A stretch of DNA of 25,201 nt. Source: a virus. Positions within the stretch are counted from its first letter, which is position 1. Each line of letters begins with the position of its first letter. Both the position numbers and the translations under genes were made by a program. Below the pieces are notes generated by a model. It searched no databases, was not told the origin of the DNA, and saw only the letters and a list, made by a program, of their open reading frames with translations. Below, piece after piece: positions 9,179-16,690 of the stretch. The stretch spans positions 1 to 25,201 of the IMG/VR virus record IMGVR_UViG_3300022752_000362. The stretch is one strand, 5' to 3'.

Positions 9179-9202
9179 CTCCTTTTGTAGGAGATTTTTT
9201 TT
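9179..9202 (+). terminator. Terminator ending the replication operon
   Basis: Stem CTCCT (9179-9183) with AGGAG (9189-9193), a 5-base loop, then eight T. The stem is short, and the T-run merges into the next late promoter. Confidence 0.75.
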
Positions 9203-9209
9203 ATAAATA
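9202..9209 (+). promoter_or_regulatory. T4-type late promoter TATAAATA
   Basis: An exact match to the T4 late consensus, 23 bases before the ATG at 9233 and overlapping the terminator tail. It marks the switch from the replication operon to the late block. Confidence 0.85.
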
Positions 9210-9232: not shown

Positions 9233-9844
9233 ATGGACTCTAAAATTTTAAGAGAAGCATCTCTTTCTTACCTTGCAATTTACGATCAAGATCTTCGTGA
9301 GGAAATGGAAGAGTGTGGTATGATTTCTGAAGAAAGAGCTCCTGGAGTAAAACCTTATAAACCAGGTCCTACTGGTGCTGAAGTCAGAGCAGATGCAAAA
9401 GCAGCAGCACAAAAAAAAGCAGCATCAAGTGCTGGCAAATCTGGTTATGGTTCTGAAGATAAGTTCAAGAGTGACTGGAAACTTCGTGCAACTCCATCTT
9501 CAACGAGTAAAAGAAAAGATGGAAGTGTTGAGACAGTTTCTCAAAGAATGGATAGAGAAAAACCTTACGCAACAAGACCTTTTTCTCCATTATTCACAAA
9601 ACAAGGAAGTCGTACTGCTTCTGCTGTTACTAGAGCTACTGAAGGTCCAGGAGAACCACAATCAGTTACAATGCCAAGAATGAAGTCAAAACCATCAAAA
9701 GAAATTATCCGTAAAGAAGATTTTGACATCTACGACATTATCCTTTCACATTTAATCGATGAAGGTTATGCAGAGACACCAGAAGCAGCAGAAGCAATTA
9801 TGGTGAATATGAGTGAAGAGTGGAGAAACTCCATTATTGGTTGA
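9233..9844 (+). CDS. Probable virion structural protein
   Basis: A 203-residue protein driven by a consensus late promoter. The middle (about residues 35-155) is Ala/Lys/Ser/Pro-rich and probably disordered. The C-terminal ~45 residues (DFDIYDIILSHLIDEGYAE, PEAAEAIMVNMSEEWR) form a helical module that I recall at the ends of several cyanophage virion proteins. The N-terminus MDSKILREASLSYL contains L-R-E-A at residues 6-9, compatible with the (L/I)xE cleavage rule of the T4 gp21 prohead protease; this is inference. No strong ribosome site is visible upstream. The exact structural role is unknown. Confidence 0.75.
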   Translation: MDSKILREASLSYLAIYDQDLREEMEECGMISEERAPGVKPYKPGPTGAEVRADAKAAAQKKAASSAGKSGYGSEDKFKSDWKLRATPSSTSKRKDGSVETVSQRMDREKPYATRPFSPLFTKQGSRTASAVTRATEGPGEPQSVTMPRMKSKPSKEIIRKEDFDIYDIILSHLIDEGYAETPEAAEAIMVNMSEEWRNSIIG

Positions 9845-9908: not shown

Positions 9909-11060
9909 ATGGCGATTATTGATAGTACAACTTATAGAATTTTAGATGCAAGAACTGTTATAAGTATATTAACTTCTGGAAAAGTCCAAACTAATAAAAA
10001 TTATCCACATATAAGAAGTAATTATTTTGATTTAAAAAAAGCATCAGATTCTAAGGTCTTGATTATCGTTAAACCTCCATACGCATCAAATATTGAAAAA
10101 ATATACGATGATGTGGCAAAATTATTTTCTATAGATGTTTTGGTGGGAAAAAGGAAAGTTTTTACCACATCTGAGAAATCTAATATTGTTGGCATTAATT
10201 TTATTTTAAATTTGCAACAACAAGTTAAGACTGTGAAGATATTATTTAAATCATCAAAAAGTTCATTAAAAGATAAACTTCCAGAACTATTAAGACCTGG
10301 TGTTTTGAATGAAGAATATTTTACTTCTGTTATTAATGATGCAATTGATAAATTAAACGAAGCTAAAACTGAAGTAGGATTGCCAAATGTTTTTAACCCA
10401 AGATTGTTATTGGGAATATATGAAAATAATAAAAAAAAATATACAGTAGGTCCAATAAAATCTATTGAAAGAGTAGGTCAAGAATTAGGAAAAACTGACG
10501 TAAGAATAAAAACGGATACTGAAAATATAAACATTTCACTTAAGAAAAAAAACTTTTCATTTTGGAGTAGTGTAAGTCAATATATTGCAGCAAAAAATAT
10601 TATGGACCATTTAGTTATAACAAATCAAATACAGATTTCTAAAAATGGTGCAGGACGAACTGAAATTAAAGATCCAACCACTGGAAAAAAAATAGAAGGA
10701 ATAAAATTACTTGCTACTGTTGGGGAAATAAAAAAATATTGTTTTGGAGAAAAACAAAATAAAATTGATTATATTTTAATAAATTCATATAATCCAGGAG
10801 ATTTTACAGAAATTAGAAAAACTGGAAAAAGTGGAGAAGATTATAAATTAGAATTAAATTCAAGTATTGTATATACAAAAACATCTTCTGATATAATTAG
10901 AATGAAAAATGATGTTTATTTAACTATTGTTCCAAGTTCTTCAAATGCTTCGGCTCTTATGCCAAATTATCCTGGATTTAAAATTCAATTTGCAAATAAA
11001 AAATTATCATCTAAATTTTTTGAACCAAATATAACTGGAGCATTTTTACAAAGAATATAA
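9909..11060 (+). CDS. Late protein with possible PD-(D/E)xK nuclease-like core
   Basis: A 383-residue protein of unknown family. A central segment reads ERVGQELGKTDVRIKTD...ISLKKKNFSFW (E187 to W219). The spacing of D197, then S210-L-K212 on the next strand, resembles variant PD-(D/E)xK nuclease cores with SxK instead of ExK, as in some phage and restriction-type families. The N-terminal third looks like an alpha/beta domain and the C-terminal third is beta-rich. It lies in the late block between virion-type genes. The gene is strikingly AT-rich (many ATA, TTA, AGA codons) compared with the replication genes. The nuclease idea is inference; it could equally be a structural protein. Confidence 0.5.
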   Translation: MAIIDSTTYRILDARTVISILTSGKVQTNKNYPHIRSNYFDLKKASDSKVLIIVKPPYASNIEKIYDDVAKLFSIDVLVGKRKVFTTSEKSNIVGINFILNLQQQVKTVKILFKSSKSSLKDKLPELLRPGVLNEEYFTSVINDAIDKLNEAKTEVGLPNVFNPRLLLGIYENNKKKYTVGPIKSIERVGQELGKTDVRIKTDTENINISLKKKNFSFWSSVSQYIAAKNIMDHLVITNQIQISKNGAGRTEIKDPTTGKKIEGIKLLATVGEIKKYCFGEKQNKIDYILINSYNPGDFTEIRKTGKSGEDYKLELNSSIVYTKTSSDIIRMKNDVYLTIVPSSSNASALMPNYPGFKIQFANKKLSSKFFEPNITGAFLQRI

Positions 11061-11063
11061 ATA
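11056..11063 (+). promoter_or_regulatory. Late promoter TATAAATA overlapping a stop codon
   Basis: An exact late consensus, embedded in the last codons and TAA stop (11058-11060) of the preceding gene and 18 bases before the next ATG. Confidence 0.8.
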
Positions 11064-11080: not shown

Positions 11081-12376
11081 ATGAAGAAATTTTCTCAATT
11101 TATTATAGAAGCAAAAGAAACAAGAGCATCTGAACAAGCAAAAAAACTTGGATTGGTTGGTGATGGTCACGGAGATTGGTATAATGCTCAAGGCGAATTT
11201 GTTGCAAAAACAGTAAAAGGGAAACTTGAATTTTTTACAAAAGGACAGAGAGTAGGGCAGAGAGATATTCCACCAAAACCAGGAACATCAGCACCTCAAC
11301 AAACAGCACAATCACAAGCACAGGCAGCAAACTCTCAACAAGTATTTCCTCAAGCGGCAGGAAAAAAACAACAAGAACTTCCTGGCGAAGATGAATATTT
11401 GACGATTGTTTTTGGAAGATTTAATCCTCCAACAAAAGAGCATAAAAAATTATTTACTGAAGCAGAAAGAATTGCTGCTGGTGGAGAGATTAGAATTTAT
11501 CCATCAAGAACTCAAGATTCTAAATTGGCACCTTTAGATACAAATAAAAAAGTAACTTACTTAAGAAAAATGTTTCCTAAGTATGCTGATGATATTATTA
11601 ATAATCCTGAAATGAAAACCATATTTGATGCATTAATATCTGCAAATGAAGATGGATATCAAAATTTAAATATTATTGTTGGATCTGATAGACAAGCAGA
11701 AGTGCAAAATTTATCAAATAAGTATAATGGAAAGTTTTATCAATTTGTTGAGATAAACGTAATTCCTACTGGTAATTTTGATTCTAAAAAAGATAGTTCT
11801 GGAATATCATCTGCAATGTTAAGAAAAGCAGCAGCAGATAATGATTTTAGAGAGTTTGGTAGAGGAATGCCTAAAGGTTTTGATGAAACTCAAACCAGAA
11901 GATTGTTTAATGATGTCAGAAAAGGAATGGGATTTAAGACAAATGTAAAAGAAAATTATAAACTTTGGGAAGTTGCCCCAGAACTTGACTATAAAAATTT
12001 AAGAGAAAATTATATTCAAGATAAAATTTTTAAAATTGGAAATATTGTAGAAAATACAAATACTGGATTAGTTGGAAAAATTATTCGTAGAGGAACAAAT
12101 TATTTAATCTGTGTAACAGAAAATGATATTATGTTTAAGTCTTGGATTAAAGATCTTATAGAATATACTGAAGTCAAAATGAATAGTATGTATAGATTGC
12201 CAGGAAAACCAAACACTTTAGCAGGAACAAAAGGATATTTTAAATATGCAGCAAAAATGACTCCAGGAACAGTTGGTACAGGAAAAGAAAATCTTCAAGC
12301 AGGTGGTAAAGCATATGGTGTTAATTTCATAAATAAGTATAAGAAAATAAAAGAAAGCATTTATTCTAATGTCTAA
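11081..12376 (+). CDS. Nucleotidyltransferase with capsid-targeting-like N-terminus
   Basis: A 431-residue multidomain late protein. Residues 1-11 (MKKFSQFIIEA) resemble the capsid-targeting sequence of T4 internal head proteins (MKTYQEFI-x-EA) and contain a gp21-type cleavage site I-I-E10/A11. Residues 23-55 form a short module (LVGDGHGDWY, GEFVAKTVKGKLEFF). Residues 65-100 are a Gln/Ala-rich linker. Residues ~104-270 are a Rossmann-type cytidylyltransferase/NMNAT-like domain: LTIVFGRFNPPTKEH (H121; a variant of the HxGH motif) and the C-terminal SGISSAMLRKAA (S240-R248 region), comparable to the ISSTxIR nucleotide-binding motif. Residues ~318-360 (FKIGNIVENTNTGLVGKIIRRG) look SH3-like. The substrate is unknown. 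The predicted head packaging would deliver it into the host with the DNA; that step is inference. Confidence 0.75.
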   Translation: MKKFSQFIIEAKETRASEQAKKLGLVGDGHGDWYNAQGEFVAKTVKGKLEFFTKGQRVGQRDIPPKPGTSAPQQTAQSQAQAANSQQVFPQAAGKKQQELPGEDEYLTIVFGRFNPPTKEHKKLFTEAERIAAGGEIRIYPSRTQDSKLAPLDTNKKVTYLRKMFPKYADDIINNPEMKTIFDALISANEDGYQNLNIIVGSDRQAEVQNLSNKYNGKFYQFVEINVIPTGNFDSKKDSSGISSAMLRKAAADNDFREFGRGMPKGFDETQTRRLFNDVRKGMGFKTNVKENYKLWEVAPELDYKNLRENYIQDKIFKIGNIVENTNTGLVGKIIRRGTNYLICVTENDIMFKSWIKDLIEYTEVKMNSMYRLPGKPNTLAGTKGYFKYAAKMTPGTVGTGKENLQAGGKAYGVNFINKYKKIKESIYSNV

Positions 12377-15008
12377 TAATATTCTCAACGATATTTCAAA
12401 GGTTTATTTGGATCAGGTTGTTTATACAACTGAAGCATTAGATCCTGTAGGACAAGAAGATGATGATATTGATAATGATGGCAAGAAGAATACAAAGTTT
12501 GATAAGTATCTTCAGCATCGTAGAGATATTCGTGGTGCTGTAATATCAAAAAGAAAAAAAGTATCAGAGGAACTAAAAGGAAATCAAGCAGTTCTTGATA
12601 AGGCACCTCCTTATGGAAAACTTACTGCTGTTGATTTTAAAGAACTTCGTAAAAGAAAAAAAAGAGTAACCAAAGAAGGTTATTCAAATTGGAGACAAGA
12701 TCTTTCTGAAATAGTTAATAAAGATCAAAATGAAACTCCAATTAAAGAAAAAAAAGTTGAAAATAAAATCATAATTAATCCACCTATGAAAATTGGTGAA
12801 GCAGTTTTTAATCTTGGTGGTGAATTGATTGAAATGGTTGAGTTTGAAGGAGTTCTTGATGAGTTTCATGATTCAGAACTTATGTTCTTATCAAATGAAT
12901 TGATTGAAGAAGTTGTTGAAGAGTTCTTCTACGAGTGCCTTGAAGAAGGTTATGAGATTGCTGAAGTTGAAGATATGTTAATTGAGTCAATTCAAACTTC
13001 AGTAGCAATTCTTAATGAAGCAAAAGTAACTTATGGTCATGATACAAAGATTGAAAGGAAAAATGATAAACTTGAAAAAGTTAAGTCTGCTGTTAAGAAA
13101 GTAGGAAAAGCAGTTGCTCGTGGTGCAGGATATGTTGCTGGTGCTGCAGTAAGAGGAGCAAAGGCAGTTGGTAGAGAGTTTAAATCTGGATATGATAGAG
13201 GTAGATATGGTTCTTCTACAACATCAACTCCATCTTCTTCTGGGTCTGAATCATCTTCTTCTGGATCATCTTCTTCTGGATCATCGCGTCCAGGTCTTCT
13301 TGGAAGAATAGGATCTGCTCTTAAAAGAGGGTTAAAAAAGGTAGTTGCAAAAGGTGCAAGAGCAGTATCCAGAGGAGCAAGAAATATTGCTCGTAAAATG
13401 GAAGGTGGTACTAATAATCAAAGTGAAGTTAGTAAATCTGATCGTGAACAAGAACCAGTCAAGAAGATTTCTGCAACATCTAAAAAGAAAACAGGACCAA
13501 TTGAAGATCCTTGGGGAAGTGCTACAACTCCATCAAAACCAAAAACTTCTTCAGTTAGGAGTGGAACTTCTAGAAGAGGAATTGAATTAAGACAAAAAGC
13601 GGATGAAATACTTAGAGGATTAAAAAGTGAATCTCATGAAGAAAATATTCCAGAGTTACGCTCAAGAACTATAACTGATGCTTCTTCTTCAGGGGGATCT
13701 AAAAAATCAAGAACTTCTAGTGTTGTAAAAATGATGAGACAAATGAACGCGGATGTTCAAAAACCAAAGAAGAAGAAGAAAAAAACAGTGGCAGAGGAAT
13801 CTTTATTAGAAAAAACTTTAACTTCCGCTGAAACTAAAAAAAAAGAAGAAATTGTAAAATCTATGAAGTCTAAACTACAAGATTTTGAAAAAAGATATCC
13901 TGGGCGTGGCAAAGAAGTAATGTATGCTACTGCTACTAAAATGTCTAAAAAGGTAGCAGAAAGTTTTATTGATGAGGCAAAGTTGTCTAAAACTGAAAGA
14001 AGAGCAAGACAAGCAGAAAATCCATCAACTCCAAGAAGACCAAGGCATCTTGTTCAGTTAGATTTAGATCAAGCAGCATTAGGAGAAGTTGGATCTAAAA
14101 AATTAAGAGATCCAAAAACAGGAAAAAAACAAACAACAAAAGTTGAACCTGCAAAGATTAATGTTAAGGGTGAAGGTGGAGAAGTTGTAAGAACAGTATC
14201 TACTGGTGATTTTCATAAAGAAAAATTAGGAAAAGGAGAAACTATGGATTTCTCTCCATTAAGAGATCCTAAAAAGTTTACTCAAACTACAAAAGCAAAT
14301 CCACATGTAGTTAATAAAGCAAGAGGTGCAGTTGTAGAACCAAATACTGCCAGAGGTGCATTTAGAAGAGAAGAGATTTCTTTAGATGAAAAAGTTGATA
14401 ATAAAAGCGTACTTCAACATTTGCAAAATATTGGATATAATAAAAAACGTGGAATGGATATAAAACCAGGTCACTTTACTGGTGATATGCCAGGATCTGG
14501 ATCACCTGGAAAAAAACTAAAGGCAACTCTGCATGATATTAAAAAATATCAACCTCAAAAAGTTTCTCATATTGATGATGATCCCAAAAATTTAGAACCA
14601 TTAGAACAACATAGAAGATCTACTCAAGGAGAAAGAGGAGAAACTAGAGGTAGTGATCCAAAGATTCATACCCAACATGTAGGTAGTTACAGAAAAAGAG
14701 GTGAAAGTAGAACTGAACCCAGGGAACATGGTAGAGTGAGGAGGTATAGTGGAGTTAGAGATCCTGAAAATGTAAATCAACCTCAAACAACGCAAGAAAT
14801 ACAACGCAGAAGACAAAGAGCAAGAAGAGGAATGGGTGAAGCAATTGATATGAATCAACAACAACCTACAACGCAAACAACAAAATCAAATCCTGCTGAA
14901 TTTGCAAGACAAAAACAGTTAGTTCAGATTCAGAAAAAGCAGACAATGGATCGAATGGCACAATTGAATAAAGGAGTACCTGTTACAAGTGAATCTATAG
15001 ATAAATAA
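12369..15008 (+). CDS. Large basic low-complexity virion protein
   Basis: An 879-residue, very basic, mostly disordered protein, overlapping the previous gene by 8 bases. Near the N-terminus is an EF-hand-like acidic loop DIDNDG (D33, D35, D37) followed by KYLQHRRDIRGAV, a pair I recall from other cyanophage structural proteins. An acidic helical stretch (about 145-215) comes next. Then come an amphipathic Gly/Ala/Lys segment (about 233-275), a Ser/Gly linker, and a second such segment (about 310-347). A FEKRYPGRGKEVMYATATKMSKK module lies near 505-530, then Arg/Gln-rich sequence to the end. Prohead-protease-type sites (I/L-x-E/A) occur after E144, E217 and E536. It is likely a capsid-internal or DNA-associated structural protein; exact role unknown. 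Confidence 0.72.
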   Translation: MSNNILNDISKVYLDQVVYTTEALDPVGQEDDDIDNDGKKNTKFDKYLQHRRDIRGAVISKRKKVSEELKGNQAVLDKAPPYGKLTAVDFKELRKRKKRVTKEGYSNWRQDLSEIVNKDQNETPIKEKKVENKIIINPPMKIGEAVFNLGGELIEMVEFEGVLDEFHDSELMFLSNELIEEVVEEFFYECLEEGYEIAEVEDMLIESIQTSVAILNEAKVTYGHDTKIERKNDKLEKVKSAVKKVGKAVARGAGYVAGAAVRGAKAVGREFKSGYDRGRYGSSTTSTPSSSGSESSSSGSSSSGSSRPGLLGRIGSALKRGLKKVVAKGARAVSRGARNIARKMEGGTNNQSEVSKSDREQEPVKKISATSKKKTGPIEDPWGSATTPSKPKTSSVRSGTSRRGIELRQKADEILRGLKSESHEENIPELRSRTITDASSSGGSKKSRTSSVVKMMRQMNADVQKPKKKKKKTVAEESLLEKTLTSAETKKKEEIVKSMKSKLQDFEKRYPGRGKEVMYATATKMSKKVAESFIDEAKLSKTERRARQAENPSTPRRPRHLVQLDLDQAALGEVGSKKLRDPKTGKKQTTKVEPAKINVKGEGGEVVRTVSTGDFHKEKLGKGETMDFSPLRDPKKFTQTTKANPHVVNKARGAVVEPNTARGAFRREEISLDEKVDNKSVLQHLQNIGYNKKRGMDIKPGHFTGDMPGSGSPGKKLKATLHDIKKYQPQKVSHIDDDPKNLEPLEQHRRSTQGERGETRGSDPKIHTQHVGSYRKRGESRTEPREHGRVRRYSGVRDPENVNQPQTTQEIQRRRQRARRGMGEAIDMNQQQPTTQTTKSNPAEFARQKQLVQIQKKQTMDRMAQLNKGVPVTSESIDK
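13230..13286 (+). repeat. 15-base tandem repeat encoding a Ser/Gly linker
   Basis: TCATCTTCTTCTGGA occurs twice in tandem (13251-13265, 13266-13280) with a close copy at 13230-13244 and a partial one after. It encodes SSSSG units between the two amphipathic segments and is prone to copy-number change. Confidence 0.85.
15000..15007 (+). promoter_or_regulatory. Late-promoter motif GATAAATA overlapping a stop codon
   Basis: NATAAATA formed by the last two codons and the TAA stop of the large basic protein, 33 bases before the next ATG. Confidence 0.65.
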
Positions 15009-16098: not shown

Positions 16099-16503
16099 AT
16101 GATTTTCAATGAATTGAATGAGGATAACTTCCTTTTATTTGCAATTAAACATTATGAAAATCCTCAAGCAGTAACCAGAGAAGATTTTGATAAAGACCTA
16201 AATCATTTCAAATATATCAAAAGACTTTTGAAAAGATATAAGAATACAGGTGAGCTAAAAACTCACCTTCTTCTTAATCATTTTATCGTTCTATATAATA
16301 TTTTTGGAGAAGCAACAACTCCAATGCTTTTTTTTAAAATAGAAAAAGAACTTTGGTCTACGATGAAAAGTTTTATTATTTTTTTGGGAAGGCTTCCTGA
16401 ATATCCAAAATCTGGAATACATGATATTAAAGTTGATCTTAATTGTCTATCAGAACTCTACAAAATCTATAATGGAAAAGAAGAAACTGGATTGGATAAT
16501 TAA
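16099..16503 (+). CDS. Conserved-looking cyanophage protein, unknown function
   Basis: A 134-residue, mostly helical protein starting six bases after the preceding stop. Notable segments are FNELNEDNFLLFAIKHYENP, HFKYIKRLLKRYKNTGELKTHLLLNH and FIIFLGRLPEYPK. It has a mixed charge pattern and no clear membrane span. I recall similar proteins in many T4-like cyanophages, without a known role. It is co-transcribed with the virion gene before it and overlaps the next gene by 32 bases. Confidence 0.8.
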   Translation: MIFNELNEDNFLLFAIKHYENPQAVTREDFDKDLNHFKYIKRLLKRYKNTGELKTHLLLNHFIVLYNIFGEATTPMLFFKIEKELWSTMKSFIIFLGRLPEYPKSGIHDIKVDLNCLSELYKIYNGKEETGLDN

Positions 16504-16690
16504 TCTTATTAGAGAAGAAATGATGACGGCAAATCCTCCCGGTAAAGGAGGAGGTGGTGGAAGTCAGACGGATTCAAAAGGAAACCAAGGATTAGTTGGA
16601 TTTGATCCTGTAATGGGAATGACAAAAAGAAAAGGTCCTCAAATTAAATTACCTCCTGGTTCTCGTAAAAGATGGCCAAAGAATAAATAA
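16472..16690 (+). CDS. Small Gly-rich basic protein
   Basis: A 72-residue protein read from ATG 16472 (MEKKKLDWIINLIREEMM). The frame is open further upstream, but those codons are the preceding gene in another frame. The N-terminal amphipathic helix is followed by PPGKGGGGGSQ and a basic, proline-containing tail (KLPPGSRKRWPKNK). It overlaps the previous gene by 32 bases and ends in an AATAAATA late motif. No strong ribosome site, so coupling is likely. Function unknown. Confidence 0.7.
   Translation: MEKKKLDWIINLIREEMMTANPPGKGGGGGSQTDSKGNQGLVGFDPVMGMTKRKGPQIKLPPGSRKRWPKNK
16682..16689 (+). promoter_or_regulatory. Late-promoter motif AATAAATA overlapping a stop codon
   Basis: NATAAATA made from the final codons and TAA stop of the Gly-rich protein; 67 bases before the next ATG. 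Confidence 0.65.

Follow-up and report, generated by a model that had tools for sequence, protein, structure and literature searches.

A 431-amino-acid (431-aa) protein encoded in a 25-kb fragment of an uncultured virus (25,201 nt; hereafter the window) is probably an internal head protein of the T4 type that is made late, cut by gp21 and leaves the head with the DNA, with an NMNAT-like domain as its cargo; we put the probability of this reading at roughly 0.7. The virion association of the family is already known, because homologues have been published in the virions of three phages; we infer the cutting, the packaging of the exact 431-aa protein, its injection and its reaction. The cyanophage tag seems not to have been connected with the T4 signal before in the open literature, in which a full-text search for cyanophages together with capsid targeting found a T4 review alone (subscription papers lie mostly outside this search). 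Also new are the occurrence of the tag on unrelated proteins (a kinase, a SAM lyase and a GNAT protein) and the recognition of residues ~16–56 as a second module common to packaged kinases and HNH nucleases.

Genomic setting

The window has the gene order of a T4-like cyanophage (Kyanoviridae): polymerase, UvsX, helicase, MazG, a cassette, primase, NrdA and NrdB. The open reading frame (ORF) at 11081–12376 (+ strand) sits in the cassette between MazG and primase and, as stated in the preliminary description, begins with ATG and encodes the N-terminus MKKFSQFIIEA. Homologues occur in 555 phage records, mostly of Synechococcus and Prochlorococcus phages. The gene had been described as lying beside virion genes, and this agrees with the annotation of phage S-SCSM1, in which the neighbouring genes 89, 90, 92, 93, 95 and 97 are labelled as virion proteins; three window neighbours, all on the + strand, are homologous to gp89 (9233–9844), gp92 (12369–15008) and, weakly, gp97 (16421–16690). 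Elsewhere in the window, positions 1339–1785 correspond to S-SCSM1 gp70, a RegA-like translational repressor that the S-SCSM1 record likewise lists as a virion protein. The product of 16421–16690, S-SCSM1 gp97 and S-CREM2 gp160 have a GFxGxxAxxGPxAGYDPLM-like stretch in common with the major capsid protein, in which it lies directly behind the predicted cut. None of the defence-system models gave a match.

A T4-type late-promoter-like element, TATAAATA, lies at 11056–11063 (+ strand), upstream of the 431-aa ORF, and ends 17 bases before the ATG; the same element is found at 9202–9209, ahead of the gp89 homologue. The late promoter proposed earlier holds as a promoter-like element that is kept among relatives but not as a count in the window, where the bare 8-mer is not significant (3 seen, 1.9 expected). 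Of 105 distinct homologous loci, 69 have ATAAATA within the 60 nt ahead of the gene (background 3.3%), mostly at 23–31 nt; it recurs at a similar distance although the genes upstream of these loci differ.

N-terminal signal

The capsid targeting sequence MKKFSQFIIE (residues 1–10; 11081–11110, + strand) has a predicted gp21 cut after E10, which would leave A11 as the mature N-terminus. With identical spacing, MKKFSQFIIE↓A (the arrow marks the expected cut) aligns to T4 MKTYQEFIAE↓A, and the determinants of the T4-type signal at residues 4, 7, 8 and 10 are all present; mutagenesis of T4 IPIII showed that targeting depends on residues 4 and 7 and processing on 8 and 10 (review PMC9026906). These four positions are conserved in 77–83 of the 84 distinct homologous N-termini compared across other cyanophages, one partial sequence having been set aside: F4 in 82, F7 in 83, L/I8 in 77 and E10 in 82, with A11 in 70. 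Conservation collapses after residue 11, falling to 20% at residue 12, and most of the non-key positions of the tag are variable. When distant members are aligned, the N-terminal columns that do not vary are M1, F4, F7 and E10. Because these columns also hold in three members from which almost all of the stretch from residue 20 to 95 is missing, the ten N-terminal residues appear to act as a separate unit. The tag is likewise retained on the homologues of S-CREM2, S-CRM01 and S-SZBM1, which do not have the second (GHG) module. The expectation that homologues would carry the motif holds within the architecture of the 431-aa protein; untagged homologues exist, but outside it (jumbo coliphage slurp01, Caulobacter phage Cr30 and a DUF6267 fusion in S-PM2). 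In the S-PM2 case (LN828717, 93485–95260), the nucleotidyltransferase domain is fused behind DUF6267 without a capsid signal, and the DUF6267 part contains ligase-type motifs by eye (KWDG, EGFVAI and VKIVDR).

The N-terminal motif is not due to chance. At the ORF starts of ten T4-like genomes, M[KR]x[FY]xx[FY][ILVMF]xE was found 24 times where residue shuffles would give about 0.08; the window holds one motif of this class, against 0.005 expected from the same procedure. A score matrix trained on cyanophage N-termini only, with no T4 sequence, was applied to the 3030 six-frame starts of T4 and placed IPIII second, IPII third and IPI, which reads MKTFKEFTSTTTPVSTITE↓A, tenth; we assigned these three names from the sequences and from what is known of T4. 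First place was taken by a 54-aa protein (MKTFKEFIKE↓D; AF158101, 18966–19130) that is presumably gene 61.1 and, to judge from its N-terminus, is possibly an unrecognised head protein. The per-position conservation and this reciprocal matrix test bear out the parallel with the T4 signal that the preliminary description had drawn.

Nucleotidyltransferase domain

Residues 105–290 (11393–11950, + strand) are predicted to form a nucleotidyltransferase domain of the NadD/NMNAT/CoaD fold. Model pLDDT is mostly about 90 over this range, Foldseek retrieves NadD, NMNAT and CoaD structures (best 2h29, E = 3.5e-5, then 9fyb and 8aii; TM by target about 0.6), and relatives match NCBIfam profiles of NMN and nicotinate nucleotide adenylyltransferases. 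The 431-aa protein itself has no NCBIfam match and reaches 18.6 bits with Pfam CTP_transf_like, below the cut-off of 21; a sequence search of solved structures returned nothing usable. Fold and profile hits favour adenylyltransferase over cytidylyltransferase, the usual database name. Farther on, residues 304–361 (11990–12163, + strand) make up a small beta domain, GxxVENxNTGLxGxIIRRGTNYLICVTE, that is a separate ORF in other cyanophages; the name often given to it there, ribonucleotide reductase alpha subunit, is probably wrong.

The description of the protein as a nucleotidyltransferase is upheld by the NMNAT-like fold (model and profiles) and by an ISSTxxR-type motif, ISSAMLR (11804–11824, + strand), which ends at R248 and in which S243 is kept in 63 and R248 in 64 of 64 sequences. 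The HxGH-type motif is non-canonical, however, and "enzyme" is less certain than was assumed: in place of a GxFxP(H/T)xGH-type sequence, residues 112–121 read GRFNPPTKEH (11414–11443, + strand), with Glu at the usual Gly. This position, residue 120, is Gly in 55 of 64 sequences of the alignment and Glu throughout the clade of the window protein, which has eight members. Because active-site residues have changed in this way, enzyme activity is uncertain in the window clade.

These changes bring in the most serious alternative, which is possible although we doubt it: that the protein is packaged and ejected but, in the window clade, is no longer an adenylyltransferase and acts as a binding protein or inhibitor, as T4 internal proteins do. 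The Glu in 8 of 8 clade members is accompanied by a change of SAS to SSG or SSA and by variable G112 and R113, as this alternative would predict; H121, R248, P116, N115, S142, R143 and D146 are nevertheless invariant. Median dN/dS in the clade is 0.06 for the tag and module region and 0.18 for the catalytic domain, values from few, non-independent sequence pairs, whereas other clades show nearly the same value for both (0.16 for the tag region and 0.14 for the catalytic domain). Delivery thus seems, from these comparisons, to be more firmly kept than canonical catalysis in the window clade, but the catalytic domain is still under purifying selection there. Among 13 records of relatives, no NAD-salvage partner gene (NadV/NAPRTase family, nicotinamide phosphoribosyltransferase) was found; as to role, the obvious guess is NAD supply, against an NAD-depleting defence or for early metabolism.

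A second module behind the signal

Profile search and alignment delimit a GHG module at residues about 16–56 (11126–11248, + strand), with the consensus AxxAxxLGLxxDGHGxWYxxxGxFVAKTxxGxLxF. A profile built from NMNAT proteins only and run on all six-frame ORFs of ten genomes matched only NMNATs, kinases, HNH-type proteins and a short S-CRM01 relative of the latter, with E values of 5e-4 to 1e-17 outside the NMNATs; the GHG-bearing kinases are present in two copies each in S-N03 and S-CREM2. The six-frame ORFs of T4 gave no match. This profile replaced a comparison of two profiles (A1 and A3), which was dropped because their sets share sequences and are not independent. Both S-CREM2 carriers other than NMNATs, gp14 and gp12, are virion proteins; gp12 is annotated as Cas9 and has an HNH-like motif by eye and no Pfam match. 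In the HNH proteins, an internal FxxFhxEA stretch that lies about 20 residues from the start precedes the module. The AlphaFold model of the 431-aa protein gives a helix at residues 4–22 and a small beta element for the module, followed by a low-complexity linker (11249–11392, + strand) that is predicted to be disordered (pLDDT about 40–65).

The position of the gene within a cassette of virion proteins would also suit a head protein with a structural or core function, one that remains in the capsid instead of being delivered. We consider this unlikely, as the model points to an enzyme-type fold behind a disordered linker and the T4 proteins that bear the tag (IPI, IPII and IPIII) are injected (PMC12373910).

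Head maturation and virion proteomes

The gp21 family (Peptidase_S77) is encoded by four of five large related contigs, including the closest, G001, and is absent from the 25-kb window fragment. Capsid proteins of related phages have a matching site near residues 55–60 (FLAE↓A, LLTE↓A and NLME↓S).

Tagged homologues have been detected by mass spectrometry in virions of S-SCSM1 (MKSFLQFLKEA; PMC9602691), S-CREM2 (MKNFSSFLTEA, 3 peptides; PMC10665884) and S-SZBM1 (MRFRQFIIEA, 2 peptides; PMC9146016), and two of these studies proposed delivery, with the caveat of co-purification. Together with the conservation of the tag and the reciprocal T4 test, these three published detections strongly support the capsid targeting and the gp21-type site first suggested from the letters of the window. 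An NMNAT reported from S-CBWM1 virions was left out of the counts because it has no detectable similarity to the 431-aa protein.

A matrix built without S-CREM2 sequences was used to score all 219 proteins of that phage, 52 of whose genes are in the published virion list. The five top-scoring proteins, set off by a clear score gap from those below, are all in the virion proteome (p = 6.5e-4): the cytidylyltransferase, an APH/ChoK-like kinase, a SAM lyase, a 78-aa protein and gp136. A rank test of tag score over the whole S-CREM2 proteome was not significant, an expected outcome given that tail and capsid parts make up most of the virion proteins. When three proteomes were pooled, 7 of 10 tagged proteins had been detected (1.9 expected, p = 6e-4), and 4 of 7 when cytidylyltransferases were removed (1.4 expected, p = 0.03). 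One of two tagged proteins was detected in S-SCSM1 and one of three in S-SZBM1, the undetected ones being small (105–165 aa). The strict motif in S-SCSM1 alone was not significantly associated with virion detection (1/48 versus 1/234); the virion set here consists of the "virion protein" labels in the GenBank record, 48 by our count and 45 in the paper. It is improbable that a highly expressed late enzyme acting in the producing cell merely contaminates virions and that its motif is coincidental or otherwise used: the authors of two proteomes did raise co-purification of a late protein in CsCl, and peptide counts are low in S-SZBM1 and S-CREM2, but the motif equals the T4 signal position by position, stands on unrelated virion-detected proteins and retrieves T4 internal proteins.

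Proposed route and relation to known systems

As an internal head protein of the T4 type, the 431-aa protein would be synthesized late and docked into the prohead scaffold core by residues 1–10, via F4 and F7. The prohead protease gp21 would then cut after E10 to create the new N-terminus A11, and the freed protein would stay among the packaged DNA and accompany it into the next host. Its most likely role there would be to act on nucleotide cofactors (NMN + ATP → NAD); alternatively, in the window clade, a modified or inactive version might bind rather than catalyse.

The likeness to T4 IPI, IPII and IPIII lies in a signal at the same positions with the same expected (L/I)xE↓A cut, such that one score matrix recognizes both. 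The T4 internal proteins are small and inhibit GmrSD restriction enzymes (PMC12373910); the protein described here, by contrast, is 431 residues long, has the fold of an enzyme and bears an additional module after the signal. The virion-detected S-SCSM1 NMNAT (gp91), S-CREM2 gp154 and S-SZBM1 gp140 are direct homologues (35–50% identity) with the tag in common; gp154 and gp140 differ from the 431-aa protein in having no GHG module, and all three keep the Gly of HxGH that it has lost. NadD, NadM and CoaD share the nucleotidyltransferase fold and the ISSTxxR-type motif but are only about 13–17% identical, and their GxFxPxHxGH is replaced by GRFNPPTKEH. DarB of phage P1 is likewise a head protein delivered to the host by means of an N-terminal signal, although a different one (PMC9024508).

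Other tagged proteins

Several unrelated proteins of related viruses are tagged, and these phages therefore probably deliver a set of proteins with their DNA. We think it reasonably likely that in Kyanoviridae the T4-type tag, often with the GHG module, is a general label by which a changing set of unrelated proteins is loaded into the head, to be delivered when infection begins, the set comprising NMNAT-like proteins, a Ser/Thr-like kinase, an HNH nuclease, a SAM lyase, a GNAT acetyltransferase and possibly an ADP-ribosyltransferase-like protein. Cyanophage virion proteomes repeatedly yield enzymes that cannot be placed, and their authors have been unable to decide which of them are cargo and which are contaminants. 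A readable label would allow this distinction by sequence alone and, for marine phages that are widespread, yield a list of delivered proteins that can be tested. It would also become conceivable to send labelled foreign proteins into cyanobacteria. The anti-restriction idea from T4 is also extended, as one of the tagged proteins detected in virions is a member of the SAM lyase family, which has an anti-restriction role in other phages.

A conserved, tagged protein of 105–107 aa (MKSFKQFISESVNISGDFNGNLYIN) occurs in S-SCSM1 (44215–44535), S-SZBM1 (gp191) and the related contigs G001 (78736–79056), G002 and G003; it lies near terminase genes in S-SCSM1 and S-SZBM1 and is absent from the detections of those two proteomes. 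The IMG/VR contig of L086 (G003) encodes, at 51987–52451, a 154-aa protein whose first residues, MKTFQEFIAEAKR, nearly match the T4 signal. By eye this protein is ADP-ribosyltransferase-like (HHGTS...GVYTS); it has no Pfam match, and tblastn links it weakly (E = 2e-3) with one of the internal virion proteins of cyanopodovirus P60. A GNAT acetyltransferase-like protein of S-CRM01 (HQ615693, 139045–139440) carries the tag MKTFDEFLTEG. Within the window, a 51-aa ORF at 2319–2474 starts MKSFREFTQIIQEM, a partial look-alike of the tag, and belongs to a family that is found in related contigs.
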